DNA of 38,915 nucleotides, from contig CP070697.1 in the NCBI GenBank assembly GCA_020353555.1, positions 5,104,194-5,143,108 of the forward strand, written 5' to 3'. A program made the position numbers and the translations under genes. The notes below the pieces were generated by a model. It worked only from the letters and a program-made list of their open reading frames with translations, made no database searches and had not been told where the DNA came from. The number at the start of each line of letters is the position of its first letter. Within the stretch, counting starts at the first letter, position 1. Positions 9,271 through 35,483 of this stretch are shown piece by piece. Source of the stretch: Desulfobacterales bacterium (GTDB taxonomy: Bacteria > Desulfobacterota > Desulfobacteria > Desulfobacterales > G020353555).

Positions 9271-9285
9271 GAGGAGACTTTGACC

Positions 9286-10217: not shown

Positions 10218-10340
10218 CTTTTTCATGGATGCCGCTGGGCGCGTGCGGCGGCTTGGACCTTGGACGACGGCCTCGCCGAACTTGTCCCTCAACTTGTTTC
10301 GCGGGCTGCAAACGGCTTGGATAACAATCAGGAGAAACGG

Positions 10341-10850: not shown

Positions 10851-10923
10851 ATATATTGATTTCATCCCGCCGAATAAAATACTTCGCGGAGTCGGAGTTA
10901 TTTGCAGACCAAGGATGCTGGTC

Positions 10924-15164: not shown

Positions 15165-16997
15165 TTAGAAGAGATTGGAGGCGAAGGCCACACTTGTGGC
15201 GGCGATCATATGAAACAGATAGGCCGGCAGAAAGCTTTGGGATCGCTCCCGGACCATTCCGGCGGCCAGACCGAATACGAGAGCACCGAATATCTCTCCG
15301 AAGGCCCAGCCGGAAAGAATTGGCTCCCAGGAGCCGGCCGTCTCAATCAGCCAATAGTTGCAGAAACCGGCATTCAGCAGGGCTGCCCCCATGACCGGCC
15401 AGGAAAGAAACCAGCGGCTGTTACAATGCTGAATGCGGGCGCCTTGCGCGAGAACGCCATGCACCAGGCTGCGGAAAAGCAGTTCAAAGGCCAGAGGAAT
15501 CATGATGATCGCGAAGAGAATGATCTCATAGGAACTCAGTTTGGAAAGCGAATCCGTCGGCAGCCAGACCCCGCCGGCAAACCCGGCCAACACCACCACC
15601 GGTAAAGCAAACCACCAGTCGTTTCCAGTCGGCAACGTGAGTCCATATTGCCATGGTCGGCGGTTTGCCAGGAAGGCCAGCACGATGAAGGTGGTCAGCA
15701 GGCCAACGATGCCGAAGCTCAAATGAAAATCTTGGATAAGTCGGCTCCAATGACTCCCTCCGAACCATTTCTCCGGCTGCCAGTTGGCGGCGCAGATCTC
15801 CGCTGCGGCCACCACGGCCGCCACCAGTGCGGCGGCGATGAGGAAACGATAAATCTGCTGGAGAAGGCTGGGCTTTTGCATGGCCTCGCGGCAGGCCTGG
15901 GCGATTTCCTGTGGGGTCAATTGGCTGCCGGTCGCGCGCGGGGAACCGCCGATATCGGCCGAACCGCCCCACTTGTTGTTCTGGGTCCGGCATTTAACCG
16001 CCGGGTCAATGAAGTTCAGTTTTTCATAAACGTCATCCAGATTGCGCGGCATAAAAGGATCCATCTGGCGCAGGGTGTACGTATTGTGGCCTTTCCGGAG
16101 GATAACCAGACCGAGGCGGTTTCCATAAAGTTTGTTCAAATGAGGTTCTAATTCATAAATTCCCAGGTCGGCCTCAACGACCGCGGCGATCCGATTATCG
16201 GTCAGTTCGACGCGCGCGACCTCCTCGATTCCTCTGAAATCGATGAAATCGCTCGATTTGTAGATGATCTGATCAATTTTATGTAAAACCGATGCGGTGT
16301 AATCAAGGTAATCGATTTCTTCCCACAGCCCCTCTTTCTTGTAATTAACCTCTTCATTGCGAAGATAGTCGATAATCCGCTGAATTTTGCCTAAAAGGTC
16401 GGGTGGAAGAGCGCTCAACTCTTTCAGTTCCAGGCCCTGGGCGTCGATGATGCCTTCCAGCCGGACTAAAGCAAACAGCACTCGGCGGTGGATGGGTTCT
16501 TTACGGCTGATCCGCAAGTGATTGAAGATGATCCAAATCGCCAATATCGTGTCCAGATCCGGTTCGTTGGCAAATATCTTCCAATCGCGATTCTGCAAAT
16601 CCAAACCTTTCATGATCATCAACAAAGCCTGTTCACAGGTGGAAAGGGTAAAAGTGCGCACACATCCCTCGTGATGATCGAGATTATAAACCTGCTTTTC
16701 ATGATCCATGAAGGGTTCACACTGGGCCACGCCGTCCAGATAGATCGTTCCGGGAGGGGATTTGCGAGCGGCCGAGGCTGAAATCGTCAAGCCGGCCTTA
16801 ATGCGGACAGTCAGATTGGGAGCTTCCAGGCAGGTGAGTACGCTTTCTTCACCGTTATCCTTGACCACATAACGCTCAGGCAGGTCACTGGCGACCAAAG
16901 GCTTGCTGTTCGTTCGCGGCGGGCTATTCATCGCAAACTCAGCATCGGAATTGTTCGCTGGATCTGGAGACATATTATGCGGCTTAGAGTTTTTCAT
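15165..16997 (-). CDS. DHH-like domain fused to a CPBP/CAAX-protease-like membrane domain
   Basis: About 610 residues. The soluble N-terminal half has NLDHHEGCVRTF near residues 105-116, NEPDLDTILAIW near 144-155 and a GIIDAQG element near 182; these resemble the metal-binding motifs of DHH-type phosphoesterases. After a linker rich in Gly, Ser and Thr (about 370-400) come six or seven membrane helices resembling the CPBP (Rce1/ABI) fold. There the usual EExxxR motif reads FELLFR, with the first Glu replaced, and the later His motif reads HMIAA without Asn, so protease activity is doubtful. Function unknown: the protein could hydrolyse a phosphodiester at the membrane or be a sensor. The start is uncertain; ATGs at 16973 and 16931 are alternatives and none has a clear ribosome-binding site. 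Confidence 0.65.
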   Translation of the reverse strand: MKNSKPHNMSPDPANNSDAEFAMNSPPRTNSKPLVASDLPERYVVKDNGEESVLTCLEAPNLTVRIKAGLTISASAARKSPPGTIYLDGVAQCEPFMDHEKQVYNLDHHEGCVRTFTLSTCEQALLMIMKGLDLQNRDWKIFANEPDLDTILAIWIIFNHLRISRKEPIHRRVLFALVRLEGIIDAQGLELKELSALPPDLLGKIQRIIDYLRNEEVNYKKEGLWEEIDYLDYTASVLHKIDQIIYKSSDFIDFRGIEEVARVELTDNRIAAVVEADLGIYELEPHLNKLYGNRLGLVILRKGHNTYTLRQMDPFMPRNLDDVYEKLNFIDPAVKCRTQNNKWGGSADIGGSPRATGSQLTPQEIAQACREAMQKPSLLQQIYRFLIAAALVAAVVAAAEICAANWQPEKWFGGSHWSRLIQDFHLSFGIVGLLTTFIVLAFLANRRPWQYGLTLPTGNDWWFALPVVVLAGFAGGVWLPTDSLSKLSSYEIILFAIIMIPLAFELLFRSLVHGVLAQGARIQHCNSRWFLSWPVMGAALLNAGFCNYWLIETAGSWEPILSGWAFGEIFGALVFGLAAGMVRERSQSFLPAYLFHMIAATSVAFASNLF

Positions 16998-18004
16998 AGC
17001 CGGATATCCATGTTCACGCGGAGATGGTTGACCGCAAACGGCAATTGCGCGCTTGCGCATCGGTCCGCAAAATACGGCCTTGATGTACCACCCGACTCGC
17101 CACCATTTGCGAAGAACCTGAAGAGCGGGAGTGCCAATGCCCAAAGGGTTTTCGCCGAGGAAAAGGCATTTCTCCGCTGAAATACGCTCCGGCTTTCATC
17201 CGGCAAACATCGCTCCGCGCCGCCGCCTGTTCCGTGAGGGCTAGTTTCCAATTTTACCGGCGCGAAGTTGGCGCGCTATGCGGCATATGCACCGTAGCTA
17301 GATATAGCCCGGGATCCATCTCGCCGCAATGGCGAAATCGCCTTCATTAAGACTTCCGGCCCCGCGAGCGCGGTTACCAAAACAATTTAGAGTAACAATC
17401 CTTTAATTTGGGGTCAAGCGTTTAAATAATTTCAATATCCTTCCTCTGTGCTTGGCGCTGCATGCCAAGCCCCCATGGTTGGATATGCCTCTTAAACCGC
17501 CGAGTGGCCGCTTTAGTCGTCGTTGTGCGATTTAACAACCTGAATTGAATAAATATTTGAAATTTGAGCCGCCCCCTCAGAGACCGCTTATGACTCGACG
17601 GCTATTGATAATCCAATCGTACCGTCGTGTCAATAAATGTTCGCGTCCCGGCCGGGGGGGGCAAATTTATTTTATAAAACAATTACAGGTGGTTATTAAA
17701 AACCATGCCTCAGGTTAGGCGAAATGCGTTTCCCAGGACCGATCCTTGGGCCGGGGACGGTCTTCGAAATAAATGACCCGTTTCGCACCGACACCCTGAT
17801 GAATGCTGTGAAACGGGATGCGGTCGGCGGGATACTGGCGGCTCCCTGCAGATGGGACCTAAATTGAAACCCAGGTGCCGGCGTTAAGAAATTAGTTGGT
17901 GTTCGTTCTAAAGTTTTTTTGTAACTTACCGATAATAATATTGTTATTTCCAGCGTGTTACGCGCCGCGGGTTAATATCAGCTTGTTTTCGAGAGATTGG
18001 GGGT
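16998..18004. other. about 1 kb AT-richer intergenic region
   Basis: No convincing gene on either strand. The right part (about 17380-18000) is clearly richer in A and T than the coding sequence around it. A 7-bp hairpin GCTTGGC-N7-GCCAAGC lies at 17450-17470 without a T run. I recognise no riboswitch or tRNA. Confidence 0.5.
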
Positions 18005-20149: not shown

Positions 20150-21706
20150 TTACTTGCAATATTTTTCTCGCAGTTTGCGGTGTAGGATCTTGCCCGTGGG
20201 CGTGCGGGGCATTTCTTCGGGCGCAATAAAAATGACCTCCTTGGGGCGCTTGTAGCCGGCCAGCTTCGAGCGGCAGCAGTCCATGATGGTCTTCGCATCG
20301 ATGGTTGCTTTATCCACGCCCGGCTTGGGAATTACGACCGCCGCGACTTTTTCGCCCCACTTGTCATCCGGCAGAGCGATTACCGCACAATCAAAGACGC
20401 ATTCGTGGCTGCCGATGACTTCTTCCACTTCGCTGGGATAGACATGCTCGCCGCCGGTGATGATCATGTTGTCTTTGCGGTCCACGATCTGGTAAAATCC
20501 GTCCGCGTCGCGTTTGGCCATGTCGCCGGCCGAAAACCATTCTCCGCGGAATGCGTCGGCGGTCTTTTCCGGCAGCTTGTAATACTCGTCAAAAAGCATG
20601 GGCCCCCGGGAGTAAAGTTCACCGACCTCGCCCATCGGGACTTCCTCGCCGTTCGCAGCCAGAATTTTGACAAAATCGGTGCCCAGAGACTCAAAGCCGA
20701 TGGAGCCCAGCTTTTGCATCTGGTACTCCGGTTTCAGGACCGTCACGATTCCGGCTTCCGAAGAACCATAGGCTTCATAAAGCTCCACGCCGGGGAAGAA
20801 ATCCATGATCGCCAGTTTCATGCTTTTGCGGACCGGCGCCGAAGAGCAAAGCAGTTTGCGGATCGAGCTGACGTCACGTTGGCGGGCTTCGGCGGATACG
20901 TTGAGGATCAGATTGTAGTGGGTCGGGATGAGCGAGATGAAGGTAATCTTTTGGCGTTCGACAATTTCCAGTATTTCTTCCGCCCGGAAAGATCGCGCCG
21001 GATGGATATAAACGCTGCCGCCGATATAAGTAAAGGTGAAGGTGAAAAAAGTGGAGTTGATATGGCACAAAGGCATGACGTTCATACAGACGTCGTGCTC
21101 GTTGAAGCCGAAATCAATGGCATTGATCAGATAAAAAGCGATGTGGGATTCATGGGAACGCACAACTCCCTTGGGTCTTCCGGTGGTCCCCGAAGTATAG
21201 ATCAGAATCCAGGTGTCGCCGGGCGCCACCTTCGCTGCGGGCTCGTCGGTCGATGAGCCCCGGATGAATTCCTCATATTCCAGGTATCCGTCCCGGGGCT
21301 GACCGACGACGATGTATCTATCCGGGGCGATGTTGTTGAGGTTGGCGCGGATGGGATCCACGGTCGAAGTAAACTCGTCGTGGACGACAAACGCGTGCGC
21401 ATCGGAGTTGCCGACGATATATTCGACTTCCGGGCTTACCAGCCGGAAGTTTATCGGAACGATCACCAGGCCGGTTTTGGCCGTCGCCAGATAAACCTCC
21501 ATGATTTCGATGCTGTTTTCCAGCAGTACCGCGACTTTGTCGCCTTTGGACAAGCCCAGGGAGAGCAGGCTGTGGGCGAGTTGATTGACCCGGGTGTTCA
21601 ACTGCGGATACGTGTAGCTTCGGGCACATTCTTTGACGGCGATCTTGTCGGGAAATTTCTTGGCGTTGACTTTTAAGATCTGACCCAGATTCAACCAGCA
21701 GGCCAT
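20150..21706 (-). CDS. AMP-forming acyl-CoA ligase
   Basis: 518 residues of the class I adenylate-forming family. Core motifs: YTSGTTGRPKGV near 170 (ATP loop), YGSSEAG near 315, GEWFSAGD plus DRKDNMIITGGEHVYPSEVE near 400-425 (hinge and A8 motif), and the catalytic lysine in PRTPTGKILHRK near 505. It activates a carboxylic acid to its CoA thioester through an acyl-adenylate; the acid is unknown. Strong AAGGAGG upstream of the ATG. It is the last gene of the leftward series, behind the ADP-forming synthetase. It has the conserved lysine that Pat/AcuA-type acetyltransferases commonly modify in this family. Confidence 0.92.
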   Translation of the reverse strand: MACWLNLGQILKVNAKKFPDKIAVKECARSYTYPQLNTRVNQLAHSLLSLGLSKGDKVAVLLENSIEIMEVYLATAKTGLVIVPINFRLVSPEVEYIVGNSDAHAFVVHDEFTSTVDPIRANLNNIAPDRYIVVGQPRDGYLEYEEFIRGSSTDEPAAKVAPGDTWILIYTSGTTGRPKGVVRSHESHIAFYLINAIDFGFNEHDVCMNVMPLCHINSTFFTFTFTYIGGSVYIHPARSFRAEEILEIVERQKITFISLIPTHYNLILNVSAEARQRDVSSIRKLLCSSAPVRKSMKLAIMDFFPGVELYEAYGSSEAGIVTVLKPEYQMQKLGSIGFESLGTDFVKILAANGEEVPMGEVGELYSRGPMLFDEYYKLPEKTADAFRGEWFSAGDMAKRDADGFYQIVDRKDNMIITGGEHVYPSEVEEVIGSHECVFDCAVIALPDDKWGEKVAAVVIPKPGVDKATIDAKTIMDCCRSKLAGYKRPKEVIFIAPEEMPRTPTGKILHRKLREKYCK

Positions 21707-21813: not shown

Positions 21814-23892
21814 TCATAGACTGATGCGTGCGTCCACGACAAATACCCGATCTTCATAGGCGATGATTGGATTTAGATCCATTTCCCGGATCGCCGGCAG
21901 ATCCGTGACGAGTTGGGAGAGCCGTTGGATGAGCTCTCGCAGGCGGGCCTGCTCGACGCCCTTTTGTCCTCGAACCCCCCGCAGGAGCGGGGCCCCTTTA
22001 ATCGCCGAAAGCATTTCCTGAGCCTCGGTGGAAGTGACCGGGGTGAGATTGAAACTCACATCTTGCATGATTTCGACATAAATACCGCCCAGGCCGAACA
22101 TGACGGTGTGACCGAGCCCTTCTTCGGCCTTGGCGCCCATGATCAATTCCAGGCCTCCCGGCAGGTATTGCTGGATGAAAAACCGCAGATCCGCGGCGGC
22201 TAGATTTTTTTCCATCTGCGCCACGGCTTCCCGCACGGCGGGGCCGTCGGGCAGGTCGACGACCACGCCGCCTATATCGCTTTTATGCACAATCGACGGG
22301 GCATCGGCCTTGACGACCACCGGATAGCCGATTGCGGCCGCCGCTTTTTCCGCTTCAGCGGCATTGGCGGCCAAACGCCAGTCGGCCACGGGAATGTTAT
22401 AGGCGGACAGGATCTCATAGACTTCGGCCGCGGTCAGATTCCGGCGGCCGGTCGCCCGCGCCCGGCCGATGATTTCTTCCCCTTGCGCGGGGTCCGTATC
22501 GGCGAAGTTGGGCAATTCACCGATCTCGCGGCTGCGGATTTTATGATAGCGCACCAGGGCCGTCATCGCCCGAGCCGCCGCGCCGGGCAAGCTGTAGCAG
22601 GGCACGCCGCCCTCCTGCAGGATTCTGACGACCTCGGTCCACTGGCGTTTGTCGGTCATTAAGTTGCAGACGATCGGTTTTTTCTGCTGTTGGCTGACCG
22701 CCACCATCTCCCGCGCAATACTTTCATTGTCCACAAAAAACGGGGTGACGAAATTGATGAAGATGCCGTCGAACTGCTCATCGGCCATCATGGCGTCCAT
22801 ACAGGCCCGGTAATGCTCCGCCGTCCCGGTGGCCAGAACGTCCACGGGGTTACTCACGGAAGCCTCGAGGTACAGTTTTTCTGTTAAGAGGGCCTTGGTT
22901 TTGGCGGAAAGCGGGGGTATCTCCAGTCCGGCGGCGACCAGCACATCCGTGGCAATCACCGCCGGCCCGCCGGTGTTGGTGATGATCCCCACCCGATTGC
23001 CGCGGGGGATGGGCTGCGAGGCGAAGGCGGCGGCGGCCTGGATCAGCTCGCCCTCGTCCATGAAGGTCAAGACGCCGGCTTTTTTGAAGATGAGATCGGT
23101 GGCGATATCTTCCCGGGCCAAACCGCCGGTGTGGGAAGCCGCCGCTTGGGCGCCTTCCTGGGTGCGGCCGGCTTTCATGGCCAGAACCGGTTTGCGGGCG
23201 GCCACCTCCTGGGCCACCTCCATGAAGGTGGCCGGGTCCCGCAGGCCTTCGACATAGGTTACGATCACCCGAGTGCCGTCATCATCTCCCAGGTACCGGA
23301 TGATTTCGGGGATAGTTACATCGCAGGCATTGCCGTTGGAGGCATAAATGCGCGTGCCGACGCCCATTTCGGAAAAGCCCTGATGAATCAGCTCGGCGAC
23401 CCCACCGCTGAGAGCGACAATGGAAATAAAACCCGGATCCGGTTTGGTAAAGGTAAAATTGCAGTAGGCCCTGATCGCCGGATCGGAGTTAATAATTCCC
23501 TGGCAGTTGGGGCCGAACATGCGGATCCCGTACTTTTGCGCCTGGGCCAGAAAATCCTTTTCAATGGCTTCGCCTTCGGGGCCGGTTTCCGAGAACCCTC
23601 CGGAGTTGATGATGATATGCTTGACGCCCTTTTTCCCGCAATCTCCCACCGCCTGGGGGACGAATTGGGCCGGGATGACCATATGTACCACGTCGATATT
23701 CTCCGGACAATCGAGAATGGACTTATAGGCCTTGAGCCCGCGGATTTCATCCGCCTTGGGGTTGATCGGATAAATAGCGCCCTTAAATCCGAAATCGATC
23801 AGATTTTTGATAATCCGGTTACCGATGGAAAGTTCCTTGCTGGAGGCCCCGATGACGGCCACGGATTTGGGCCTGAATAAAGTGTCTAACAT
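21814..23892 (-). CDS. ADP-forming acyl-CoA synthetase (fused alpha and beta domains)
   Basis: 692 residues. The CoA-binding domain starts at residue 1 (FRPKSVAVIGASSKELSIGNRI), the ligase CoA domain carries the phosphorylatable histidine in QAAASHTGGLA near 255, and the C-terminal ATP-grasp domain (from about 475) shows GYPVVVKADAPSIVHKSDIGGV. This is the NDP-forming acetate/acyl-CoA ligase architecture (Acd). It interconverts acyl-CoA plus ADP and phosphate with acid plus ATP, so in fermentative or aromatic catabolism it usually conserves energy from the final acyl-CoA. GGAG nine bases before the chosen ATG. It lies between the HgdB-like gene and the AMP-forming ligase. Confidence 0.92.
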   Translation of the reverse strand: MLDTLFRPKSVAVIGASSKELSIGNRIIKNLIDFGFKGAIYPINPKADEIRGLKAYKSILDCPENIDVVHMVIPAQFVPQAVGDCGKKGVKHIIINSGGFSETGPEGEAIEKDFLAQAQKYGIRMFGPNCQGIINSDPAIRAYCNFTFTKPDPGFISIVALSGGVAELIHQGFSEMGVGTRIYASNGNACDVTIPEIIRYLGDDDGTRVIVTYVEGLRDPATFMEVAQEVAARKPVLAMKAGRTQEGAQAAASHTGGLAREDIATDLIFKKAGVLTFMDEGELIQAAAAFASQPIPRGNRVGIITNTGGPAVIATDVLVAAGLEIPPLSAKTKALLTEKLYLEASVSNPVDVLATGTAEHYRACMDAMMADEQFDGIFINFVTPFFVDNESIAREMVAVSQQQKKPIVCNLMTDKRQWTEVVRILQEGGVPCYSLPGAAARAMTALVRYHKIRSREIGELPNFADTDPAQGEEIIGRARATGRRNLTAAEVYEILSAYNIPVADWRLAANAAEAEKAAAAIGYPVVVKADAPSIVHKSDIGGVVVDLPDGPAVREAVAQMEKNLAAADLRFFIQQYLPGGLELIMGAKAEEGLGHTVMFGLGGIYVEIMQDVSFNLTPVTSTEAQEMLSAIKGAPLLRGVRGQKGVEQARLRELIQRLSQLVTDLPAIREMDLNPIIAYEDRVFVVDARISL

Positions 23893-23952
23893 TTTACCAC
23901 GCTCCTTTTTTATGATAAATTCCGAACCTCTCCCCATTCCAGACAGCCCGGT

Positions 23953-25197
23953 TTACCTGTTTTCTTCCAACTGCTCGATGAACGCCTCCACGTTGGTCTT
24001 GGTCTGTTCATCGGAGAGCAGGCGGAGGTCGTTCAGATCGCCGGGGATGGTCAGACTGGGAATGCCGGTTTCCTTTTCGAGGCGTTGCGGCATACCGTAG
24101 CGGCAATTGGAGTTGTTGGGGCAGGTCTTGGCATCATGGTAGATGATCCCGTCCACCTTGAAGAAGTCCAGCATATCTTTGATGTACTTTTCCTTGGCTT
24201 CGTCGGAACGGACGATAAACAATTCCGTGTAGGCGCGCGCCATGCTGGTAAAGGGATCCTCGGGGTCCAAGGCCGAGAATATCCAGCTGTTGCAGTAGGT
24301 CGAAGCCAGCACATTGGCGTGCAGACCGGCAAATAGCTTGGAGTGCGCACTGAGCCTCCCCCAGACCGGCATCCCTTCCCAGTAAATCCGGTAGCGTTCG
24401 TCTTCCACGGCCCCTTCACCGTTTCTGATCCGCTCTTCCAGTTCGGCCAGCAGAATCTTGTAAACGTCCAACGCCTTCTGGGTTCCGCGACCCACCACGG
24501 CGGGCCCCATGAGAGTGGTGCCGTCAAAAAAAGTCAAGGGAGCCGGAGCCGCCGCCGCGGTATCCAGTATTTTTTTCCAAATATCCGAACAGGCACGGGA
24601 CAGTTCGACCACGCGTTTGAGCTCGTTCAGGTCGAATTGGGCGCCGGACACCTGCTCCAGGGGTTCAATCAAGGCCTGCATCTGTTTGGCGATGGAATCC
24701 ACATGGGACTCGGTCACCTTCTGAACACCGCGGTGGGTGTGAATCCCGATGACGGGGGCCTTGAATCTTGCGCCGTACCAGGAAAACCAGTCCTGCACGT
24801 CGCGGCACTGGTTGGTGTTAAAGACCAGTACATCCGGCTTCGGAATGCGGTCGATATTGAAGGCCTTGGCCAGGGGGGTAACCCCGCGCAAAAAGGCGCC
24901 GATATCGGCGGTGAGATAGGAGCAGATATCCGGTGAGTACCCCAAGGCGTTGGCCTCCGGGATCAGATCCGTTGCCATGCGTGTGGCGCCCAGCATCGCC
25001 GAGTGGGTCTCTGGAAAGTAAACCAGAAATCCCATGGCGCGGAGTATTTCCGCCGGGCCGACGCTGGTGCACCAGGCGATTTTCGGTTCGCCGGCCTTGG
25101 CAGCCTTGTCGAGTTCAAGGTAATACTCCGCCATGAACTTGGCGACTTCCGCCGCGGCGGCTATCTTTTTCCTGACAACTTGCTTTTCTTCGGGCAT
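23953..25197 (-). CDS. 2-hydroxyacyl-CoA dehydratase / benzoyl-CoA reductase (HgdB-type) subunit
   Basis: 414 residues, close to the usual length of HgdB, BcrB/BcrC and double-cubane proteins. Conserved-position cysteines are Cys43 (AWCTSVGPAE), Cys92 (DICSYLTADIG), Cys131 (NTNQCRDVQ) and Cys359/Cys365 (TCPNNSNC), suitable ligands for an iron-sulfur cluster. In known two-subunit enzymes two such proteins form the catalytic heterodimer, driven by an ATPase activator. Here only one is present, with the activator gene next upstream. It may be a homodimeric dehydratase, a double-cubane cluster protein like the YjiM/YjiL pair of E. coli, or one half of a reductase whose partner lies elsewhere. Strong AGGAGG before the ATG. 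Confidence 0.82.
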   Translation of the reverse strand: MPEEKQVVRKKIAAAAEVAKFMAEYYLELDKAAKAGEPKIAWCTSVGPAEILRAMGFLVYFPETHSAMLGATRMATDLIPEANALGYSPDICSYLTADIGAFLRGVTPLAKAFNIDRIPKPDVLVFNTNQCRDVQDWFSWYGARFKAPVIGIHTHRGVQKVTESHVDSIAKQMQALIEPLEQVSGAQFDLNELKRVVELSRACSDIWKKILDTAAAAPAPLTFFDGTTLMGPAVVGRGTQKALDVYKILLAELEERIRNGEGAVEDERYRIYWEGMPVWGRLSAHSKLFAGLHANVLASTYCNSWIFSALDPEDPFTSMARAYTELFIVRSDEAKEKYIKDMLDFFKVDGIIYHDAKTCPNNSNCRYGMPQRLEKETGIPSLTIPGDLNDLRLLSDEQTKTNVEAFIEQLEENR

Positions 25198-25482
25198 AAT
25201 ATATCCTCCTGTTGGTTATTTATTTCTTTGCGGATATCTTAAGCGGCCAGCCCATGGATACCCGTAAACTGTGACGACGTTCCGAAGCAAGACACCCGGC
25301 GACCGAAGACGGCAAAACAGAAGCCCGGCTTCCGTTCGAGGCGCCTGAATCCTCGCAAAACGATCCGCCCCGGACCCTGTCGTCCCGTCTTGGACTTTGC
25401 GTCTGGGATCCGCGGCCGCGGGCTCCCGGCGCGATGTTCCGGCTGCATCCGGCCTTGGAGCGTCGAACTTTGCGCTGGGACC

Positions 25483-26265
25483 TTATTGGTCACGGTTCAT
25501 CGCATACAAGGCGGCGCCGATAGCTCCGGTGAACTGCGGGTGCTCGGGGACCAGAATGCGCCGGCCAATCATTTCTTCAGTCATTTTAACCAGATAGGGA
25601 TTGTGGGCCACGACGCCGCCCGTCATGACAACATGGGCGGTCAGCGAATCCATTTCCAGGACGCGCTTGATCACCGAAAAGAAAACCCCCTTGACAATAT
25701 CTTCGATTTTTTGGCCATGCCGGATATTTTCCAATACCTCGGTGGCCGAAAAAACGGTGCAAAAGCTTCCCAGTTTCACCATGTTTGCGGACTGACGGGC
25801 CAGTCCGTCCATGTTTTCCAGGGGGATGTCCAGGCGGGCCGACATTTCTTCCAAAAAGGCCCCGGTGCCGGCCGCGCATTTGCGGTTCATCTTGAAACTC
25901 GTGCGCCGACCCGCCTCATCGAGTTTGATGATTTTATTGTCCTGTCCGCCGATATCGATGATGGTGATGGGCTGGGGAAAATACAGATAACAGCCGCTGG
26001 CATGGCAGCTTATTTCCGTTCGGCTATCGCGCGCAAAGGCGACATTTTTGCGCCCATATCCGGTCGAAATCGCGTTGACGATGTCGCCTTCCGCGGCCCG
26101 GGCCATCCTTAACGAAGCCGCCAGACATTCGGCGGCGGTGGCCGTGAAATCGGTGCCCGACTTGCGCACGGCCCGGCCGATCAAGTTTTTATCGCCGTCG
26201 AGAATGGCCACTTTGGTGCGTGAAGCTCCCACGTCAGCACCCACGTAGATTGGTTTAGATGTCAT
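25483..26265 (-). CDS. BadF/BcrA/HgdC-type ATPase activator
   Basis: 260 residues, like HgdC. Actin/Hsp70-fold ATP-binding motifs are DVGASRTKVAIL at 11-22, IIDIGGQDNK at 102-111 and MTGGVVAHN near 214-222. Cys130 (KCAAGTGAF) and Cys169 (GSFCTVF) match the two cysteines that bridge one [4Fe-4S] cluster between subunits of the homodimer. It uses ATP hydrolysis to inject a low-potential electron into the HgdB-type protein encoded next to it. The 285-bp gap between the two genes holds no gene I can support. MTSKPIY is taken as start; the ribosome-binding site is weak. Confidence 0.92.
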   Translation of the reverse strand: MTSKPIYVGADVGASRTKVAILDGDKNLIGRAVRKSGTDFTATAAECLAASLRMARAAEGDIVNAISTGYGRKNVAFARDSRTEISCHASGCYLYFPQPITIIDIGGQDNKIIKLDEAGRRTSFKMNRKCAAGTGAFLEEMSARLDIPLENMDGLARQSANMVKLGSFCTVFSATEVLENIRHGQKIEDIVKGVFFSVIKRVLEMDSLTAHVVMTGGVVAHNPYLVKMTEEMIGRRILVPEHPQFTGAIGAALYAMNRDQ

Positions 26266-26407: not shown

Positions 26408-27352
26408 TTATTTCGATTCCAATCCCTTGACGAGGGCCCGGAGCGTTTTGTTGTAAGGCGTATCCATCCCTGTCCGATCTCCGTATTCCACGAATTTGCC
26501 ATTGATGAAATCAATCTCGGTGCGGCGGTGGGCTTCAATATCTATCAGCATCGAAGGTTTATGGTCCCCGGCGCTGCCCATGTAATCCATGGCGTAGGTG
26601 TAATAGTCCCAGCCCAGGCTGATTTCGTTGGCGCGGGCCACTTGGATGCATTCTTTGACCAGGGCATCCACGATTTGATAAATGATAGGGTCGTTCATCG
26701 CCCGTGCCATCGTCAGTCCGGTCACGGCACACACCGGATTCATCGAAGCATTCATCACGGTTTTACGCCAAACCATCGATATTATTTGATCGGTGTGCAC
26801 AGTGGCCAAGCCGCAGCGGGTGAGCGTCGCGGCGACCGCCCGGGCCGCGTGGCGGGATCCCGGATCGAGTTCCTGAACGTGGTGGGGCGGATGATGAAAC
26901 GGCATGCGGACATGGGCCGGTCCCGCCAGCCCGCAGCCATAATTGACGACGGCGCGCATCACAGGCTTGCGGCCCAGTACTTTGGCGATTTCCAATTCGG
27001 TATCGATCCCGTTTTGCCAACTGACGATGTGAATGCCTTCCCGGTAAAATCCTTCGAGGGCGGATGCAATCAAGGGCAAGGCATTCGCTTTCACGGTGAT
27101 GAAGATCACATCCGGATGGTAGGCGGCCAACTCATCGATATTCGTGCATGTGTGGGAGATCGGTTGTTGGAGGTTTTCGGCGCCTTCGATCATAATTCCG
27201 CGGTCGAGGGCCGGCGCCAAAAGATCAGGAATAACATCGCAGAGGGTTACCGTGTAACCGCCCCGGGCGAGGAAGGCGGCGACGATACAACCGACCGGCC
27301 CGGCGCCGACAACGGCAAATGACTGGGGATTAAAATTGGGCGTAGCGTTCAT
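26408..27352 (-). CDS. ketopantoate reductase (PanE/ApbA)-family NADPH oxidoreductase
   Basis: 314 residues. The Rossmann loop AVVGAGPVGC is at 14-23, the family catalytic lysine lies in VWRKTVMNASMNPV near 200, and the catalytic glutamate in HRRTEIDFING near 280. Both active-site residues are thus present. PanE reduces 2-dehydropantoate to pantoate for CoA synthesis, but relatives reduce other 2-oxo acids. In this operon a 2-keto acid reductase feeding a 2-hydroxyacyl-CoA dehydratase would make sense; that is inference. GGGAGG seven bases before the ATG. Confidence 0.85.
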   Translation of the reverse strand: MNATPNFNPQSFAVVGAGPVGCIVAAFLARGGYTVTLCDVIPDLLAPALDRGIMIEGAENLQQPISHTCTNIDELAAYHPDVIFITVKANALPLIASALEGFYREGIHIVSWQNGIDTELEIAKVLGRKPVMRAVVNYGCGLAGPAHVRMPFHHPPHHVQELDPGSRHAARAVAATLTRCGLATVHTDQIISMVWRKTVMNASMNPVCAVTGLTMARAMNDPIIYQIVDALVKECIQVARANEISLGWDYYTYAMDYMGSAGDHKPSMLIDIEAHRRTEIDFINGKFVEYGDRTGMDTPYNKTLRALVKGLESK

Positions 27353-29125: not shown

Positions 29126-29722
29126 TCAGACGGCCTGTCCGGCGGCCGCAAAGCCGAGTTCAAATGCCTTTAAGTTCGAATCCAAAAAGTCCTTTTTGGT
29201 CTTACGTTGCATGGCCTCTTTGACATGATCCACCGTCAGGGGGAGCACGCCGGTTTGTATCAGGGCGCCCAGCAGGACCATATTGACCGCCAAAACGTTG
29301 CCCGCCTCTTGGGCCAGGGCGGCGGCGTTGAAAGCAATCAGCTTGGCGGTTTTTTTCCGAATCAGCTTCTGCAGGTGATCCAGGTCGGGATAAACTCCCT
29401 GCCCGATGTTCACGGTAAACGGCATCAACGGTGCGAGATTGGTGATAACGACGGTGTGGGCGTTGCATTTATTTAAGGCCCGCAGCGTCTCGGCGGGTTC
29501 AAATCCCACCAGCACATCGGCTTCGCCGTCGGAGATGATGGTGCTATGGGCTTCACCAAAAACAAGCGCCGATTCCACCACCCCGCCCCTTTGGGCCATG
29601 CCGTGAATTTCACTCATGCGAATGGGAACACCGGCCAGAAGCGCTGCCTCTCCCAAGACGCTGGATGCCAAAAGGTTGCCTTGTCCTCCTACTGCTACAA
29701 TGATCAGTCTTTTTGTCTCCAT
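29126..29722 (-). CDS. iorB: indolepyruvate:ferredoxin oxidoreductase, beta subunit
   Basis: 198 residues, as expected for IorB. It starts KRLIIVAVGGQGNLLASSVLGEAAL, the gamma-type 2-oxoacid oxidoreductase signature, then SEIHGMAQRGGVVESAL near 38-54 and a domain ending in DFLDSNLKAFELG. With IorA it oxidatively decarboxylates aryl-pyruvates to aryl-acetyl-CoA and reduces ferredoxin. The start is fixed by AGGAAG six bases upstream; a longer open frame runs upstream but overlaps non-coding sequence and the IorA end. A 128-bp gap separates it from iorA. Confidence 0.93.
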   Translation of the reverse strand: METKRLIIVAVGGQGNLLASSVLGEAALLAGVPIRMSEIHGMAQRGGVVESALVFGEAHSTIISDGEADVLVGFEPAETLRALNKCNAHTVVITNLAPLMPFTVNIGQGVYPDLDHLQKLIRKKTAKLIAFNAAALAQEAGNVLAVNMVLLGALIQTGVLPLTVDHVKEAMQRKTKKDFLDSNLKAFELGFAAAGQAV

Positions 29723-29850: not shown

Positions 29851-31719
29851 CTAGGCCGGAACACTCTTCTTGGATTTGACCGGCAGGATTGCGTTTTCCG
29901 GACAGATCTGGGCACACACCGCGCAACCGGTGCACAGATTGGGATCGATTTTGACGCGGTCCTCCCAGGTATAAAAGGCCGGACAGGCGAGCGTGTCGAT
30001 GCACTCCCGGTGATCTTTGCACTTGGCGCTGACATGAAACGCCTTGCGCTGGGGGAGTTTGAGACCTTTAGCGTACAGGGTGCATGTTTCCTGGGATATG
30101 ATCACCGAAACGCCCTTGAATTGAAGCGCCTCTTTAATCGCCGCGATACTCTTCTGCACTTTGTAAGGTTTGACGACGGTGATATGGGGAACGCCGATGG
30201 CCCTGACGATCGCTTCAATCGAAACCTGACCGTAGCCGTCAAGGTTCAACTGCTGCATGTCGACCCCCGGATGAGGCTGGTGTCCGGTCATGGCCGTCGT
30301 TCCGTTATCCAGAATGACCAGGGTGAACTCGTGATTATTAAAGACCCCATTGATCAAACCGGGAATGCCGGAGTGAAAGAAAGTCGAGTCGCCGATGAAG
30401 GCAATCACTTTTTTGTTCGTCACCTTGGAAAAGCCGCCGGAGGTGCCGACCGATGAACCCATGCAAATGAGGAAATCGGCCGCGGAAAGCGGCGGCAGCA
30501 GGCCTAGGGTGTAACACCCGATGTCGGTTGGGAAAATCGTTTCCATACCTTCGGCGGCCCGCCGGACTTCATAAAAAGTGGCCCGGTGGGAACAGCCGGC
30601 GCACAGGGTCGGGGGGCGCTGCGGAACTTGCGGCACGTCCGTCAAATCCGGCAGCGTCGCCGGTGTGTAGGCCAATCCAAAATAGCGCGCGATCGTCTGC
30701 CGAACCTGGGCGGGATTGTACTCGTAGAGACGACTGAAGAGCCCTTCGCCCTTGCCCTTGATCGGCAGAGTTAATCCTTCCTCCTGCGCCAGAGCCTTGA
30801 CCGCTTCCTCCATATAGGGTTCGCCTTCTTCGACCATGAGCACCTTTTCGGATCCTTGCAGGAAGTCTTTGATCAGCGCGGCCGGTAGGGGGTGCGAAAA
30901 TCCAATCCGCAGGACTCTGACCTGATCTTCGATCTGCAGATCCTGGATGGCATCCGCCACGTAATTATAGCTGACGCCGTTGCAGATGATCCCCCACGGC
31001 CCTTTACCGGTCGTGAAATTATATTCGGATTTTTCGGCCAGCCCCCGGGCCGTGTCGTAATTCTTGAGCAGCCGGACGTGTAATTTGCGCGCCACGGCCG
31101 GAACCGGTACTAGATTGAGGGGATCATTCTTAAAATCACCCCGGGTGATGCGTTCGCGGATCGGACCCAAGGTCACCGTACCGGTGGAATGATTGATGCG
31201 CGTGGTGGTGCGAAACAGCACCGGCTCCTGGAGCTTTTCCGAAAGATCAAAGGCGTAGGGCACCAGGTTTTTGGCTTCTTCCACCGAGGACGGCTCAACC
31301 ATGGGGAGCCCGGACAGCTTGGCGTAAAAGCGGTTGTCCTGTTCGTTCTGGCTGGAAAACATCAAGGGGTCATCGGCGGTCAACACCACCAGGCCGCCTT
31401 TAACGCCGACATAGGCCAGGGTCATCAGAGCATCGGCGGCAACGTTCAGCCCCACATGCTTCATCACGCACATGGTGCGAACGCCGGAATTCGCTGCTGC
31501 GGCCGCCACTTCGAGGGCCACCTTTTCGTTGGTACTGTATTCGAAGTACAGGTCGCTTTCACGGGCTATTTGGAAAAAGTTTAAAGATATTTCCGAGGAG
31601 GGAGTGCCGGGATAGGTGCTCGCAAAGGCCACGCCGGCCTCAATCGCTCCGCGGGCAATGGCTTCATTGCCTAAAAGGAGAACTTTCTGACCTGGATTGT
31701 CGGTAAGTAGTTTGTGCAT
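29851..31719 (-). CDS. iorA: indolepyruvate:ferredoxin oxidoreductase, alpha subunit
   Basis: 622 residues, full length. The N-terminal pyrimidine-binding domain shows GNEAIARGAIEAGVAFASTYPGTPSSE; the diphosphate-binding TPP domain has GDSTFFHSGIPGLINGVFNN and TTAMTGHQPHPG (about 425-470). The C-terminus carries ferredoxin-type cysteines including CTGCAVCAQICPE. It is TPP- and iron-sulfur-dependent and cytoplasmic. ATG chosen, with AAGGAAG six bases upstream; a GTG two codons earlier is possible. It follows the CxxC mini-protein gene by 60 bases. Confidence 0.95.
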   Translation of the reverse strand: MHKLLTDNPGQKVLLLGNEAIARGAIEAGVAFASTYPGTPSSEISLNFFQIARESDLYFEYSTNEKVALEVAAAAANSGVRTMCVMKHVGLNVAADALMTLAYVGVKGGLVVLTADDPLMFSSQNEQDNRFYAKLSGLPMVEPSSVEEAKNLVPYAFDLSEKLQEPVLFRTTTRINHSTGTVTLGPIRERITRGDFKNDPLNLVPVPAVARKLHVRLLKNYDTARGLAEKSEYNFTTGKGPWGIICNGVSYNYVADAIQDLQIEDQVRVLRIGFSHPLPAALIKDFLQGSEKVLMVEEGEPYMEEAVKALAQEEGLTLPIKGKGEGLFSRLYEYNPAQVRQTIARYFGLAYTPATLPDLTDVPQVPQRPPTLCAGCSHRATFYEVRRAAEGMETIFPTDIGCYTLGLLPPLSAADFLICMGSSVGTSGGFSKVTNKKVIAFIGDSTFFHSGIPGLINGVFNNHEFTLVILDNGTTAMTGHQPHPGVDMQQLNLDGYGQVSIEAIVRAIGVPHITVVKPYKVQKSIAAIKEALQFKGVSVIISQETCTLYAKGLKLPQRKAFHVSAKCKDHRECIDTLACPAFYTWEDRVKIDPNLCTGCAVCAQICPENAILPVKSKKSVPA

Positions 31720-31779
31720 CGTCACTTCCTTCGCAAAGATTTTTTATTCACCCCAGAGATTACGGCAGGGCCGAACCCC

Positions 31780-32001
31780 TCAATCTGTTTCCGATTTTTT
31801 GCGCGTAAAAATTCTCCGATAGTTCTCCGGCGCCAATTGCATACACCCGGTACACCCCGGTTCCTCATCTGGATTAAAAGGCTCCAGGTGAACTTCAAAT
31901 CCGATCTGCCGATATAGCGCGACCATTTCGGTCAGCCTTGGTTCGTCGTAGATGGCTTGTTTTTGCCAACCCTGGCGGACCAATTCTTCTTCGCGTGTCA
32001 T
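31780..32001 (-). CDS. small conserved CxxC protein
   Basis: 73 residues, starting MTREEELVRQGW, with a central VALYRQIGFEVHLEP stretch, a CTGCM pair (CxxC) near residue 52 and a basic YRRIFTRKK end. GGGAG lies about ten bases before the ATG. Mini-proteins of this look occur in many anaerobe genomes; the function is unknown to me. It lies within the leftward series between the crotonase and iorA, so co-expression is likely. Confidence 0.65.
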   Translation of the reverse strand: MTREEELVRQGWQKQAIYDEPRLTEMVALYRQIGFEVHLEPFNPDEEPGCTGCMQLAPENYRRIFTRKKSETD

Positions 32002-32089: not shown

Positions 32090-32860
32090 TCACCTGTTTT
32101 TCCACACCGGCTGGCGCTTTTCTTCAAAGCTTCGAATCCCTTCCAGCGTGTCTTCCGTTTGCATCAGGGTCTTGAGAAAAAGGTCGCTGACCCCCCGCAA
32201 GGCCTGGGGGAACCCCATCCCGAGGTGGTGTTTGACGGCGCGTTTGTTGAGCCGGATAATCAGCGGGCTGCCGGCTTGAATTTCTTTGACCAGCCCCGAG
32301 ACCGCTTCGTCGAGTTGCTGGTCGTCGACCGCCTGGCTGATAAGGCCCATGGCCTGAGCTTCGGCGGCCGTGTAGCGTTTGCCGGTGGTGCAGATCTCGA
32401 TGGCCTTGGCGGGGCCGACGAGTTGGGGCAGGCGTATCGCGGCATAAGGAGGAAAAAAGCCCAATTTGATCTCCGGTTGGCCGAAAAGCGCCCTTTGAGC
32501 CGCCACGATGATATCACAGGCAATGGCCACCTCCAGGCCGCCCCCAAGGCAGGCTCCGTGGACCGCCGCCAGGGTCGGTACCTCAATCCGGTCGATCAGT
32601 TCGAAGATGCGGTTGAAAGTTGCAATCATCTCATCCACCAGGGCGGGTTTGTGATCAGCGACCTCCACCCCGGCACACCAGCTGGGCCCTTCGCCGGCGA
32701 TCACCAGGCACTTCAGATCCTGATCCGCAGAGAGGGTTTCGAGCTCGGCGTTGAACTCATTCATCATGTCGATATTGAGCACATTGTGCTTGGGGCGGGC
32801 GAAGGTGATGCGTGCGACGCCGTCGGCTTTTTGGATTTTGTGATACTTGAGTTCGGACAT
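32090..32860 (-). CDS. crotonase-family hydratase, probable cyclohexa-1,5-diene-1-carbonyl-CoA hydratase
   Basis: 256 residues, the usual crotonase size. Oxyanion-hole segments are SWCAGVEVADH near 61-71 and HGACLGGGLEVA near 100-111. The GVEVADHKPALVDEMI stretch and FGQPEIKLGFFPP (in place of the standard PEINLGLIPG) recall dienoyl-CoA hydratases (Dch/BamR) of the anaerobic benzoyl-CoA pathway, which add water to the reduced ring. That subfamily call is from memory of motifs; a general enoyl-CoA hydratase is the alternative. The BamA gene at the head of the same series supports the specific call. AAGGAAAA lies upstream of the chosen ATG. Confidence 0.75.
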   Translation of the reverse strand: MSELKYHKIQKADGVARITFARPKHNVLNIDMMNEFNAELETLSADQDLKCLVIAGEGPSWCAGVEVADHKPALVDEMIATFNRIFELIDRIEVPTLAAVHGACLGGGLEVAIACDIIVAAQRALFGQPEIKLGFFPPYAAIRLPQLVGPAKAIEICTTGKRYTAAEAQAMGLISQAVDDQQLDEAVSGLVKEIQAGSPLIIRLNKRAVKHHLGMGFPQALRGVSDLFLKTLMQTEDTLEGIRSFEEKRQPVWKNR

Positions 32861-33044
32861 GGCAGGTTTTCCTTTTATGCTTGGTATTAGAAAGAATACA
32901 GCGTTTCTGCAAAAAAATCGATCGTTCGCGGCCAAGCCGCGCGCGTGGGGGATTTCCGTTCGATGCCCGCCGCGGGTCAATCCGTGACGATCTTTGCTGC
33001 TTGTTATTTGCTGTGTTCTGGGCGCGCGCCGGGGGCGATGGGTC

Positions 33045-33479
33045 TTAAGCCTTTTGGAAAACGTAGTTGAACTGTTCGTTGGCCACCCGGTTGACCACGG
33101 TCTTCACCTCCATTCCGATTTGGATGTCCCCCTCGGGCACATCACCGGCAATCCGGCCGAAGACCTTGTAGTCGCCGTAGTCCACCAGGGCGATGCAGTA
33201 GGGCACATCTTCCTGAAATCCCACAGGCGCAAATTCGAGTTTGCTGTAAGTGACCAGCTGACCGCGACCCGCAACTTCAAACCATTCCATGTTGCTGGCC
33301 AGGCACTGGTAGCAATCCGCCCGGGGCGGGAAAAAAACCAGGCCACAGACTTTGCAGCGGGTGCCCATGACCTGACCGTTTTCCAAATAGTCAATGAAAT
33401 CATTGATTTTTGTGGTAGAAGTAAAGCTAACCGTGCCAAATTTCTTAAAGCGGTCATCCATTTCCTTGATGCTTCCCAT
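33045..33479 (-). CDS. DUF35 zinc-ribbon/OB-fold protein, thiolase partner
   Basis: 144 residues. A zinc ribbon (Cys42, Cys45, Cys56, Cys59 in CKVCG and CYQC) precedes an OB-fold that starts at GRGQLVTYSKLEFAP near 71. This is the ChsH2/BbsA-like pattern. Such proteins bind SCPx-type thiolases and are needed for their activity. Its ATG overlaps the thiolase stop (TAATG), so translation is coupled. The longer open frame upstream lies inside the thiolase gene in another phase and is not used. Confidence 0.9.
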   Translation of the reverse strand: MGSIKEMDDRFKKFGTVSFTSTTKINDFIDYLENGQVMGTRCKVCGLVFFPPRADCYQCLASNMEWFEVAGRGQLVTYSKLEFAPVGFQEDVPYCIALVDYGDYKVFGRIAGDVPEGDIQIGMEVKTVVNRVANEQFNYVFQKA

Positions 33480-34648
33480 TAGGCCCTCCCTAGAATGCTG
33501 ACATTGCCGTAAAGACCCACCCCGCCGATGTTGTGGACCAAACCGATCTCTGGGCTTGGCACCTGCATGGCGTCCGCTTCCTCGCGCAGCTGCAGCACGA
33601 TGGTCCGGATTTGCGAACCTCCGGTGGCCCCAATCGGGTGTCCTTTGGATAAAAGGCCGCCGTCCACGTTGACCGGTATGGAGCCCTCCCGGTAAGTCGC
33701 TTGGCTTCGAATGAGCTCTTTGCCTCCCCCCGGTTCGGCAAAGCCCAAGTCTTCGTAAGCCATCATCTCGGCGATGGTGAAACAATCGTGCACTTCCGCG
33801 ACATCGATATCCGGGGGGCCGACCCCCGCCATTTGGTAGGCCTGACGGCTGGCTTGCCGGGCGACGGTCAAACCGGTGAACAGATCCCGGCCGGCCAGGT
33901 TCACACTGGCGCTGGCGGCCCCTAGTCCCAGGATCCACACCGGTTTTGGACTCAAAGCTTTGGCCATTTCCTCGTTGGCCACGATGAGACAGGAGCTGCC
34001 GTCGGCATTGGCGCAGCAATCTCCCACCCGCAGCGGGCTTGCCACCGGGCCGGACATGCGATTTTCCGGGTCGACGAACATCTCCAGGCCGACCGGTTTG
34101 CGGTAGACGGCCCGGTCGTTGATCTGTCCGTAAGTGGCTGCCTTGACGCGGATGCGGGCCAGGTCCTCCGGCGTGGTCCCGTATTTTTGCATGTGCGCGC
34201 GGGCATACATGGCATAATAGGCCGGCATCATGGTTCCAAACGGGCTTTCCCATTGGATGTCCGCCCCCCGACCCATTCTTTCCTGGGATTCGGAGGAAGA
34301 AATTTCGGACATTTTCTGAAAACCGATCACCGCTACGATTTTGTGCAGCCCGGATTTGATCAGAGCATAGGCCTGTCTCAAGCCCATGCTGCTCGAGGAG
34401 CATAAACTTTCCACATAGAAAGTCGGCTGGGGGTTTAAGCCGAGGTATTCGGCAAAGACGCCTGCCGGGGAACGCTGTTTGTCGTATTCCGGTGCGGAAC
34501 AGATGATGGAGGCATCAATTTCCCTGGTCGTTATTTGGGCATCCTGAATGGCCTCGCGGAATCCTTCGAAGGCCAGCTCCCGAATCGAACCCGGATAACT
34601 GCGAACGAAGGCGCTTTGTCCCACACCGATGATGGCTACTTTTCCCAT
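33479..34648 (-). CDS. SCPx-type thiolase
   Basis: 389 residues. The N-terminus is VAIIGVGQSAFVRSYPGS, the acyl-accepting cysteine lies in ESLCSSSSMGLRQA near 86, and C-terminal active-site parts are VHDCFTIAEMMAYEDLG near 285, GHPIGATG near 338 and VHNIGG near 370. The last has His where classical thiolases have the second Cys, which is typical of the SCPx group that works with a DUF35 partner. It would cleave a 3-oxoacyl-CoA, such as 3-oxopimelyl-CoA in benzoyl-CoA breakdown, or an aryl 3-oxoacyl-CoA as BbsAB does in toluene breakdown. AGGAG before the ATG. Confidence 0.88.
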   Translation of the reverse strand: MGKVAIIGVGQSAFVRSYPGSIRELAFEGFREAIQDAQITTREIDASIICSAPEYDKQRSPAGVFAEYLGLNPQPTFYVESLCSSSSMGLRQAYALIKSGLHKIVAVIGFQKMSEISSSESQERMGRGADIQWESPFGTMMPAYYAMYARAHMQKYGTTPEDLARIRVKAATYGQINDRAVYRKPVGLEMFVDPENRMSGPVASPLRVGDCCANADGSSCLIVANEEMAKALSPKPVWILGLGAASASVNLAGRDLFTGLTVARQASRQAYQMAGVGPPDIDVAEVHDCFTIAEMMAYEDLGFAEPGGGKELIRSQATYREGSIPVNVDGGLLSKGHPIGATGGSQIRTIVLQLREEADAMQVPSPEIGLVHNIGGVGLYGNVSILGRA

Positions 34649-34733
34649 CGACGATCTCCTTGATCCGGACCGGCCGGAATCTGCCAAAGTGCTTGAAATT
34701 GAGGTTCAAAACCCATTGCGGATCGCACGCATT

Positions 34734-35483
34734 TCAAATGTACTGCCCGCCATCCACCTTGATCACTTCGCCGGTGACATGACGGGCCTTGTCGGAGGCC
34801 AGAAAAGCGACAACATATCCCAGATCTTCCGGCTGGCCGACGCGCTTGAGAACGATTTCGGCCAGGGCCAGCTCAATAATTTTGTCGCGGGCTTCGGATT
34901 CCCGGAGCATGGCGGTTTCAATCAGTCCGGGTGCCACCGCGTTCACGTTGACGCCGAAGCCGCCGAGTTCTTTGGCGAGAGCCTTGGTAAACCCGATGAT
35001 GCCGGCCTTGGAGGCGGAATAGTTGGTCTGTCCGAACTTGCCGCGCAGGCCGTTGATCGAGGTGATATTAATGATTTTACCGTATTTCTGATCTTTGAAA
35101 AGGGGGGCCACGTGGCGGCTGAAATTAAAATAACCTTTCAAATTGACTTCCAACACCCGATCCCATTGCTCTTCGGTCATCTTCCAGGAGACGCTGTCCC
35201 AATTCATGCCCGCGTTGTTGACCAGGATATCCAGCCGGCCGAATTCCGTGAGGGCCGCTTTGACCACCCCTTCGGTCTCGGCGAACGAGGCGCTGTCACA
35301 CTGAACGGCCAGGGCCTTGCGGCCGATGGCCCGTATTTGATCGGCATACTTCTGAGCTTCATCCGCATGTCTGCGGTAAGTCAGACAGACGTTGGCCCCT
35401 TCGCGTGCCAGTTCCAGCGAAATCGCGGCTCCGATTCCCTGGGAACCGCCTGTCACGAGAGCGTTTTTTCCCTCCAACAACAT
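34734..35483 (-). CDS. short-chain dehydrogenase/reductase (FabG-like)
   Basis: 249 residues. The nucleotide-binding TGGSQGIG is at 11-18, NNAG near 89, and the catalytic Ser-Tyr-Lys in ITSINGLRGKFGQTNYSASK near 140-160. It would oxidise a 3-hydroxyacyl-CoA with NAD(P). Lying nine bases after bamA, with AGGAGG just before its ATG, and before the thiolase, it most likely oxidises 3-hydroxypimelyl-CoA, the product of BamA. It might instead replace BamQ, the ring alcohol dehydrogenase, which is missing here. The family itself is certain. Confidence 0.88.
   Translation of the reverse strand: MLLEGKNALVTGGSQGIGAAISLELAREGANVCLTYRRHADEAQKYADQIRAIGRKALAVQCDSASFAETEGVVKAALTEFGRLDILVNNAGMNWDSVSWKMTEEQWDRVLEVNLKGYFNFSRHVAPLFKDQKYGKIINITSINGLRGKFGQTNYSASKAGIIGFTKALAKELGGFGVNVNAVAPGLIETAMLRESEARDKIIELALAEIVLKRVGQPEDLGYVVAFLASDKARHVTGEVIKVDGGQYI

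Follow-up and report, generated by a model that had tools for sequence, protein, structure and literature searches.

A lone HadB-type subunit with its own activase in an aromatic gene cluster of a Desulfobacterales bacterium, a candidate single-subunit aryl-2-hydroxyacyl-CoA dehydratase

Organization of the locus

We analyzed a stretch of 38,915 nucleotides from a Desulfobacterales bacterium (GCA_020353555.1, contig CP070697.1, positions 5,104,194 to 5,143,108), hereafter the window, from a genome consisting of one contig of 6.84 Mb. Feature coordinates are window positions. The original prediction described a lone HGD-D family subunit together with its own activase at 23953-26265, and this was confirmed. 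To our knowledge, the 2-hydroxyacyl-CoA dehydratases and class I benzoyl-CoA reductases (BCRs) studied biochemically all combine a catalytic subunit and a second subunit that relays electrons. The HGD-D protein of the window resembles the catalytic subunits and recurs in many phyla without a partner gene, and it is a candidate for an aryl-2-hydroxyacyl-CoA dehydratase that works as a single subunit. We refer to the HGD-D and activase genes together as the module. The features of the cluster are:

23953-25197, minus strand: single HGD-D subunit (alpha/HadB-type), 414 aa; PF06050 221 bits (cut-off 28)
25483-26265, minus strand: ATP-dependent activase (ASKHA, HgdC/HadI/BcrAD type), 260 aa; TIGR00241 204 bits (cut-off 125)
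25198-25482, no strand: 285-bp gap from activase to HGD-D gene, without recognizable coding sequence
26408-27352, minus strand: 2-keto-acid reductase/2-hydroxyacid dehydrogenase of the ketopantoate reductase family (KPR); TIGR00745 198 bits, over the cut-off
21814-23937, minus strand: ADP-forming acyl-CoA synthetase (ACD), from profile matches; 15 bp downstream of the HGD-D gene
20150-21706, minus strand: AMP-forming acyl-CoA synthetase (ACS); PF00501
27607-28914, minus strand: phenylacetate-CoA ligase-like protein (PaaK); TIGR02155 543 bits, below the cut-off of 646
29126-29722, minus strand: IorB, indolepyruvate (arylpyruvate):ferredoxin oxidoreductase beta; NF005323 207 bits and TIGR03334 201 bits, just below the cut-offs
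29851-31725, minus strand: IorA, indolepyruvate (arylpyruvate):ferredoxin oxidoreductase alpha; TIGR03336 761 bits, over the cut-off of 651
31780-32001, minus strand: small conserved CxxC protein between the hydratase and IorA; no Pfam match, homologs at 7/80 loci
32090-32980, minus strand: enoyl-CoA hydratase family (dienoyl-CoA hydratase-like); TIGR03189 151 bits, below the cut-off of 292
33045-33482, minus strand: DUF35/OB-fold protein paired with the thiolase, from sequence and gene order; no NCBIfam match
33479-34687, minus strand: thiolase (BbsB-related); PF22691, BbsB model 175 bits, below the cut-off
34734-35483, minus strand: short-chain dehydrogenase; PF13561
35493-36671, minus strand: BamA/Oah, 6-oxocyclohex-1-ene-1-carbonyl-CoA hydrolase; TIGR03200 560 bits, over the cut-off of 464

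The HGD-D and activase genes belong to one operon. All of these genes are on the same strand, with the series from BamA through IorA, IorB, PaaK-like protein and KPR upstream of the activase and HGD-D genes, and ACD and ACS downstream. The closest PDB structure to the activase was 4eht, and its Cys motifs RKCAAGTG and GSFCTVF align with 4eht and 1hux. The catalytic Lys and Glu motifs of the KPR align with those of solved KPRs, of which 2ew2 and 3wfi are among the closest relatives. A close relative of the hydratase is found directly upstream of BamA in Desulfococcus multivorans.

The gap between activase and HGD-D genes contained no open reading frame (ORF) with a recognizable homolog, and the genome held no second copy of it. 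The activase and HGD-D genes of D. multivorans overlap. A small partner hidden in the gap was rejected on the grounds of this overlap and the lack of a homologous ORF.

The predicted active site is of the catalytic type

A maximum-likelihood tree of 63 sequences placed the HGD-D protein and its orthologs in one clade with 100/100 support. The clade falls in the half of the tree that holds HadB, BcrB, BzdO and MbdO, which is split at 100/100 from the half holding double-cubane cluster proteins (DCCPs), HadC, BcrC and BzdN. Within its own half the clade lies outside BcrB and BzdO. A placement inside BcrB or BcrC, which would have spoken against the original prediction, was rejected by the tree.

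In BzdO the cluster is bound by Cys95, Cys128 and Cys380, with Glu65 and His131, while the double-cubane ligands of BzdN are Cys36, Cys73, Cys100, Cys263, Cys293 and Cys327 (PMC11971306). Cys92, Cys131 and Cys359 of the window protein align with the three BzdO ligands, in the columns that also hold the HadB ligands, and Glu63 aligns with Glu65 of BzdO. The three cysteines were invariant in all 58 clade sequences compared, and the [4Fe-4S] cluster that they are predicted to bind would have an open site. The column of the BzdO proton donor His131 is occupied by Val134, and all HadB-type sequences likewise have Val there.

Of the six double-cubane ligand columns, four contain Cys; the other two hold Thr (column 44) and Val (column 329). 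Cys43 was considered as a ligand and rejected; it is shifted by one residue from the ligand column, and 2 of the 58 sequences have Val in its place. Cys302 (codon 24292-24294) is invariant in the clade and occupies the column of BzdN Cys263, a distal double-cubane ligand. This column is Cys in 7/7 DCCPs, in 6/7 BcrC/BzdN and in 6/9 HadC-type sequences, and in no other catalytic-type sequence that we tabulated. Cys302 may be a remnant of a lost sub-cluster, or it may serve as a fourth ligand.

The AlphaFold2 model (pLDDT 90.8) matched the HadB structure 3o3m_A best (TM 0.89, 30% identity), and DCCPs with a TM of only 0.74-0.76. Among curated families the HadB equivalog scored highest (228 bits), still far below its cut-off of 750. 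Scores were also below the cut-offs for the DCCP family NF040772 (67 vs. 350 bits) and the class I BCR families TIGR02260 (159 vs. 487) and TIGR03191 (83 vs. 449). The alignment, tree and fold give good support to a predicted active site of the catalytic type.

The original prediction had also likened the protein to DCCPs. This kinship was rejected by the ligand columns, the NF040772 score, the tree and the fold, and the reduction of a small molecule, suggested along with it, was not supported either.

No gene for a partner subunit

No second HGD-D gene was found in the window. A four-profile hidden Markov model search gave a single HGD-D gene for 79 of 81 loci, the exceptions being L153, which holds a BzdNO pair, and L140, which holds a short fragment. 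Each module consists of one HGD-D subunit and one activase, without a BcrC/BzdN-type double-cubane partner or two ATPase subunits. The activase is a dedicated one; it scores over the TIGR00241 cut-off, carries the Cys motifs for a bridging [4Fe-4S] cluster and was found at 72/80 loci.

The rest of the genome encodes three other PF06050 proteins, a BcrB-like/BcrC-like pair and a lone BcrB paralog. Such non-adjacent subunits had been named beforehand as a possible source of a partner. However, the clade protein is the sole PF06050 protein in five module-carrying genomes that are 93-97% complete (G092, G131, G166, G038 and G053), and on the closed chromosome of Desulfonema magnum the only HGD-D proteins are the clade member and a DCCP (48% identical to 6eno). 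D. multivorans likewise encodes a separate true DCCP. A distant beta subunit was rejected, since some genomes with the module lack any other PF06050 protein, and the absence of a partner subunit gene is well supported. The two different HGD-D subunits of 2-hydroxyacyl-CoA dehydratases are thus lacking at these 79 loci and in the five genomes. The module is dehydratase-like and yet departs from the family in one defining feature, the second subunit.

The other family members of this genome lie in settings of their own. The BcrB-like/BcrC-like pair at 4.42 Mb (L014, 9056-13392) is followed by two ATPase genes and forms a complete class I BcrBCAD-like cluster, both HGD-D subunits of which are divergent, with long tree branches. 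In Desulfobacterales, ATP-independent class II reductases are expected. The lone BcrB-like paralog at 6.31 Mb (L015, 9113-10465) has no ATPase among its neighbors, which include a thiamine-diphosphate-type enzyme, thiolases and a molybdopterin oxidoreductase. At 6.25 Mb (L017, 9748-14175) a protein of 1475 aa carries two PF01869 activase domains in one chain, with no adjoining HGD-D gene.

Distribution and recurring neighbors

In a survey of 389 genomes of the class, 87 contained an ortholog (criterion at least 52% identity) with 52-83% identity over the full length, while the next-best matches stopped at 37%. Those relatives of 33-37% identity that were examined adjoin a HadC-type gene, whereas clade members do not. 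A scan of GTDB genome contigs gave at least 566 matching contigs. Because full-length orthologs occur in this many genomes and contigs, and nearly all loci have a single HGD-D gene, the module is not a product of chance.

Neighborhoods were counted for the best 80 of the at least 566 relatives, which belong to Desulfobacterota, Anaerolineae, Thermoplasmatota, Lokiarchaeota, Ignavibacteria, Aminicenantes, Spirochaetes and others. Besides the activase, KPR was found at 62/80 of these loci, ACD at 54/80, ACS at 53/80, and IorA and PaaK at 24/80 each. Archaea and Chloroflexi have a different gene order, and their KPR shares only 35-40% identity with that of the window. Since KPR is still present despite this divergence, its association with the HGD-D gene is not mere inherited synteny. 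The original suggestion that CoA synthetases and a 2-keto-acid reductase hint at 2-hydroxyacyl-CoA chemistry gains from the recurrence of this neighborhood across phyla.

At L100 (7524-7970) and about 20 further loci a tandem ACT-domain protein is encoded directly upstream of KPR, which suggests amino acid sensing. A plus-strand trio of the window (7363-12231), named from sequence as a probable tungsten aldehyde:ferredoxin oxidoreductase, an Fe-S protein and an FAD oxidoreductase, has homologs that adjoin the module in the Thermoplasmatota loci L112, L117, L123, L124, L154 and L155. The minus-strand ORF of 659 aa at 15165-17144 appears by eye to join a soluble domain at its N-terminus to a C-terminal membrane part, an unusual fusion.

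Aromatic setting and the Desulfococcus multivorans locus

Two links to aromatic metabolism were overlooked in the original prediction, namely that to ring cleavage and the published expression of an orthologous locus specifically on phenylacetate and phenylpyruvate. We found bamA, scored with TIGR03200, in 71/87 module genomes vs. 51/302 others, as raw counts that ignore kinship. BamA was over the cut-off in 8 of 9 named-locus genomes tested, the Lokiarchaeon having a weak, incomplete match. In Anaerolineae, BamA and 6-hydroxycyclohex-1-ene-1-carbonyl-CoA dehydrogenase (Had; over the TIGR03201 cut-off) are encoded contiguously with the module, and on an Ignavibacterium chromosome it adjoins 4-hydroxybenzoyl-CoA reductase-like genes, Had and BamA. 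The module at 1.218 Mb of a Thermoplasmatales chromosome is followed by BzdNO-like genes at 1.239-1.241 Mb and by BamA at 1.247 Mb, all within 30 kb.

The orthologous locus of D. multivorans (G005:C1:2789484-2797244, at 2.79 Mb) encodes AMP-forming synthetases, HGD-D, activase, KPR, an ACT-domain protein, IorB and IorA. A TRAP transporter lies downstream, and a thiolase of the family found at other loci is 12 kb away. In this organism phenylacetate and phenylpyruvate specifically elicit the formation of proteins encoded by two gene clusters at 2.77 Mb, including a TRAP transporter, CoA ligase, Hbd5, hydratase and thiolase, with IorA3B3 formed on phenylpyruvate (PMC5109826). The module falls in this substrate-specific locus, Dmul_C247xx-C248xx. 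D. multivorans lacks PadB and PadEFGHI, and its published description neither settled how phenylacetyl-CoA becomes benzoyl-CoA nor suggested a role for a dehydratase (PMC5109826). Phenyllactate supports growth, and Dmul_C24850-70 were proposed for its conversion to phenylpyruvate (PMC5109826). By gene counting these three locus tags span the activase and KPR genes, and the HGD-D gene as well depending on one small ORF.

A July 2026 study of anaerobic benzene degradation independently called for a phenyllactyl-CoA dehydratase in a marine sulfate reducer, and its authors noted a singular gene, 30% identical to FldB (PMC13416013). KPR-family D-mandelate dehydrogenases act on bulky 2-keto acids, benzoylformate included (PMC4230899). 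An aromatic substrate of the module is likely.

Proposed function and alternatives

We consider it reasonably probable that the module is a single-subunit aryl-2-hydroxyacyl-CoA dehydratase, HadB-like and without a HadC-type subunit, whose cinnamoyl-type CoA product is converted to benzoyl-CoA by beta-oxidation. The oligomeric state, substrate and direction of flux that we infer would be as follows. The HGD-D protein would most likely be a homodimer, activated by the adjoining homodimeric activase, which would take an electron from reduced ferredoxin and, upon ATP hydrolysis, inject it directly into the Cys92/131/359 [4Fe-4S] cluster. The KPR-family enzyme would reduce an arylpyruvate to the 2-hydroxyacid (aryllactate), and ACS or ACD would form its CoA thioester. 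The reduced cluster would then remove water from an aromatic (R)-2-hydroxyacyl-CoA, such as phenyllactyl-CoA or a hydroxylated analog, by way of a ketyl radical to give cinnamoyl-CoA. Hydratase, dehydrogenase and thiolase could convert the arylacryloyl-CoA to benzoyl-CoA or 4-hydroxybenzoyl-CoA and acetyl-CoA, and benzoyl-CoA would proceed to benzoyl-CoA reductase and BamA.

Phenylpyruvate and amino acids would enter this scheme directly. For phenylacetate, IorAB may act as a reductive carboxylase converting phenylacetyl-CoA to phenylpyruvate, which is the most speculative step. In methanogens IorAB serves in aryl-acid carboxylation. Our literature search found no paper joining reductive carboxylation, phenylacetyl-CoA and phenylpyruvate. 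As a tentative hypothesis, IorAB, KPR, ACS/ACD, the one-subunit dehydratase and beta-oxidation could form an unrecognized pathway for phenylacetate and phenylpyruvate in place of the Pad route, common to sulfate reducers, Anaerolineae and archaea.

Several observations weigh against the dehydratase proposal. Cys302 might fill the open cluster site. The co-occurrence with bamA is counted irrespective of phylogeny, and bamA is absent from 16 of the 87 module genomes, one of them being G092, which is 97% complete. The HGD-D protein is not among the detected proteins named in the main text of PMC5109826. Finally, the module was not found in a search of genome G050. We take this genome to be that of Desulfobacula toluolica Tol2, a phenylacetate user. 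Because the module is absent there, another route to benzoyl-CoA must exist in that organism.

The genomes without bamA would also fit a single-subunit dehydratase for aliphatic 2-hydroxyacyl-CoAs of the branched-chain or lactyl type, with the aromatic genes as mere neighbors. HadB, the best curated match although below cut-off, is the (R)-2-hydroxyisocaproyl-CoA dehydratase, and KPR-type enzymes favor C3-branched 2-keto acids (PMC4230899). However, IorAB and PaaK are arylpyruvate and arylacetate enzymes, and the strong co-occurrence with bamA and the phenylacetate/phenylpyruvate-specific locus of D. multivorans make an aliphatic substrate unlikely.

Somewhat less likely still is a one-subunit ATP-dependent aryl-CoA ring reductase, a simplified class I BCR that would feed the co-encoded hydratase, dehydrogenase and BamA. 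The ring-cleavage genes do lie in the same cluster in both the window and Anaerolineae, and the cluster ligands and Glu match those of BzdO. Several carriers, however, already have a reductase: the present genome encodes a BcrBCAD-like enzyme, the genomes of L153, the Thermoplasmatales and the Lokiarchaeota encode BzdNO-like ones, and D. multivorans has class II BamB (PMC5109826). In addition, the D. multivorans locus is specific for phenylacetate/phenylpyruvate, whereas growth on benzoate would also require a benzoyl-CoA reductase, the proton donor His131 is replaced by Val, the recurring KPR would go unexplained, and the clade does not group with BcrB or BzdO.

It is very improbable that the protein is half of a heterodimer with its partner encoded elsewhere. 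This genome does encode a BcrC-like protein, at 4.42 Mb, that could be such a partner, and every dehydratase and class I BCR characterized biochemically is a heterodimer, yet neither the five nearly complete genomes nor the D. magnum chromosome hold a beta-type subunit, and 79/81 loci lack another HGD-D gene. Equally improbable is a double-cubane homodimer of the DCCP/YjiM type reducing a small molecule, which would share the gene economy of the module and four Cys columns including Cys302, but is contradicted by the two columns lacking Cys, the low family score, the tree and fold, and the separate true DCCPs of D. magnum and D. multivorans.

A widespread partnerless subunit of the catalytic type makes both the need for a relay subunit and the direct feeding of a catalytic cluster by an activase directly testable. 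The module also offers a specific candidate for an unsolved step by which marine sulfate reducers oxidize aromatic amino acids and phenylacetate, and it could close a gap in the degradation of phenylalanine and phenylacetate by sulfate reducers. If true, a pathway replacing Pad would explain why D. multivorans forms hydratase, dehydrogenase and thiolase on phenylacetate without PadB and PadEFGHI. Such genes of archaea and Chloroflexi should not be annotated as benzoyl-CoA reductase subunits.

Comparison with known systems

HadBC with its activator HadI, and likewise FldBC, HgdAB and LcdAB, share with the module the HadB fold, the three cluster cysteines, the catalytic Glu, a dedicated ASKHA activator, and a 2-keto-acid reductase and CoA-activating genes nearby. 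The module differs in having no HadC-type subunit, in its extra invariant Cys302, and in adjoining acyl-CoA synthetases with no CoA-transferase seen. It is tied to oxidative benzoyl-CoA metabolism, whereas the HadBC group is tied to Stickland fermentation.

The class I BCRs (BcrABCD, BzdNOPQ and MbdONQP) belong to the same family, have the same catalytic-subunit ligands and often occur in the same genome or cluster. Compared to these, the module has one subunit and one activase, no [8Fe-9S] partner and Val for His131 of BzdO, and it branches outside BcrB/BzdO. DCCP with DCCP-R (6eno, 7yyl; the E. coli YjiM/YjiL type) has the same composition of one HGD-D subunit and one activator. Unlike DCCP, the module lacks two of the six double-cubane ligands, retains the alpha-type Glu and is distant in both tree and fold.

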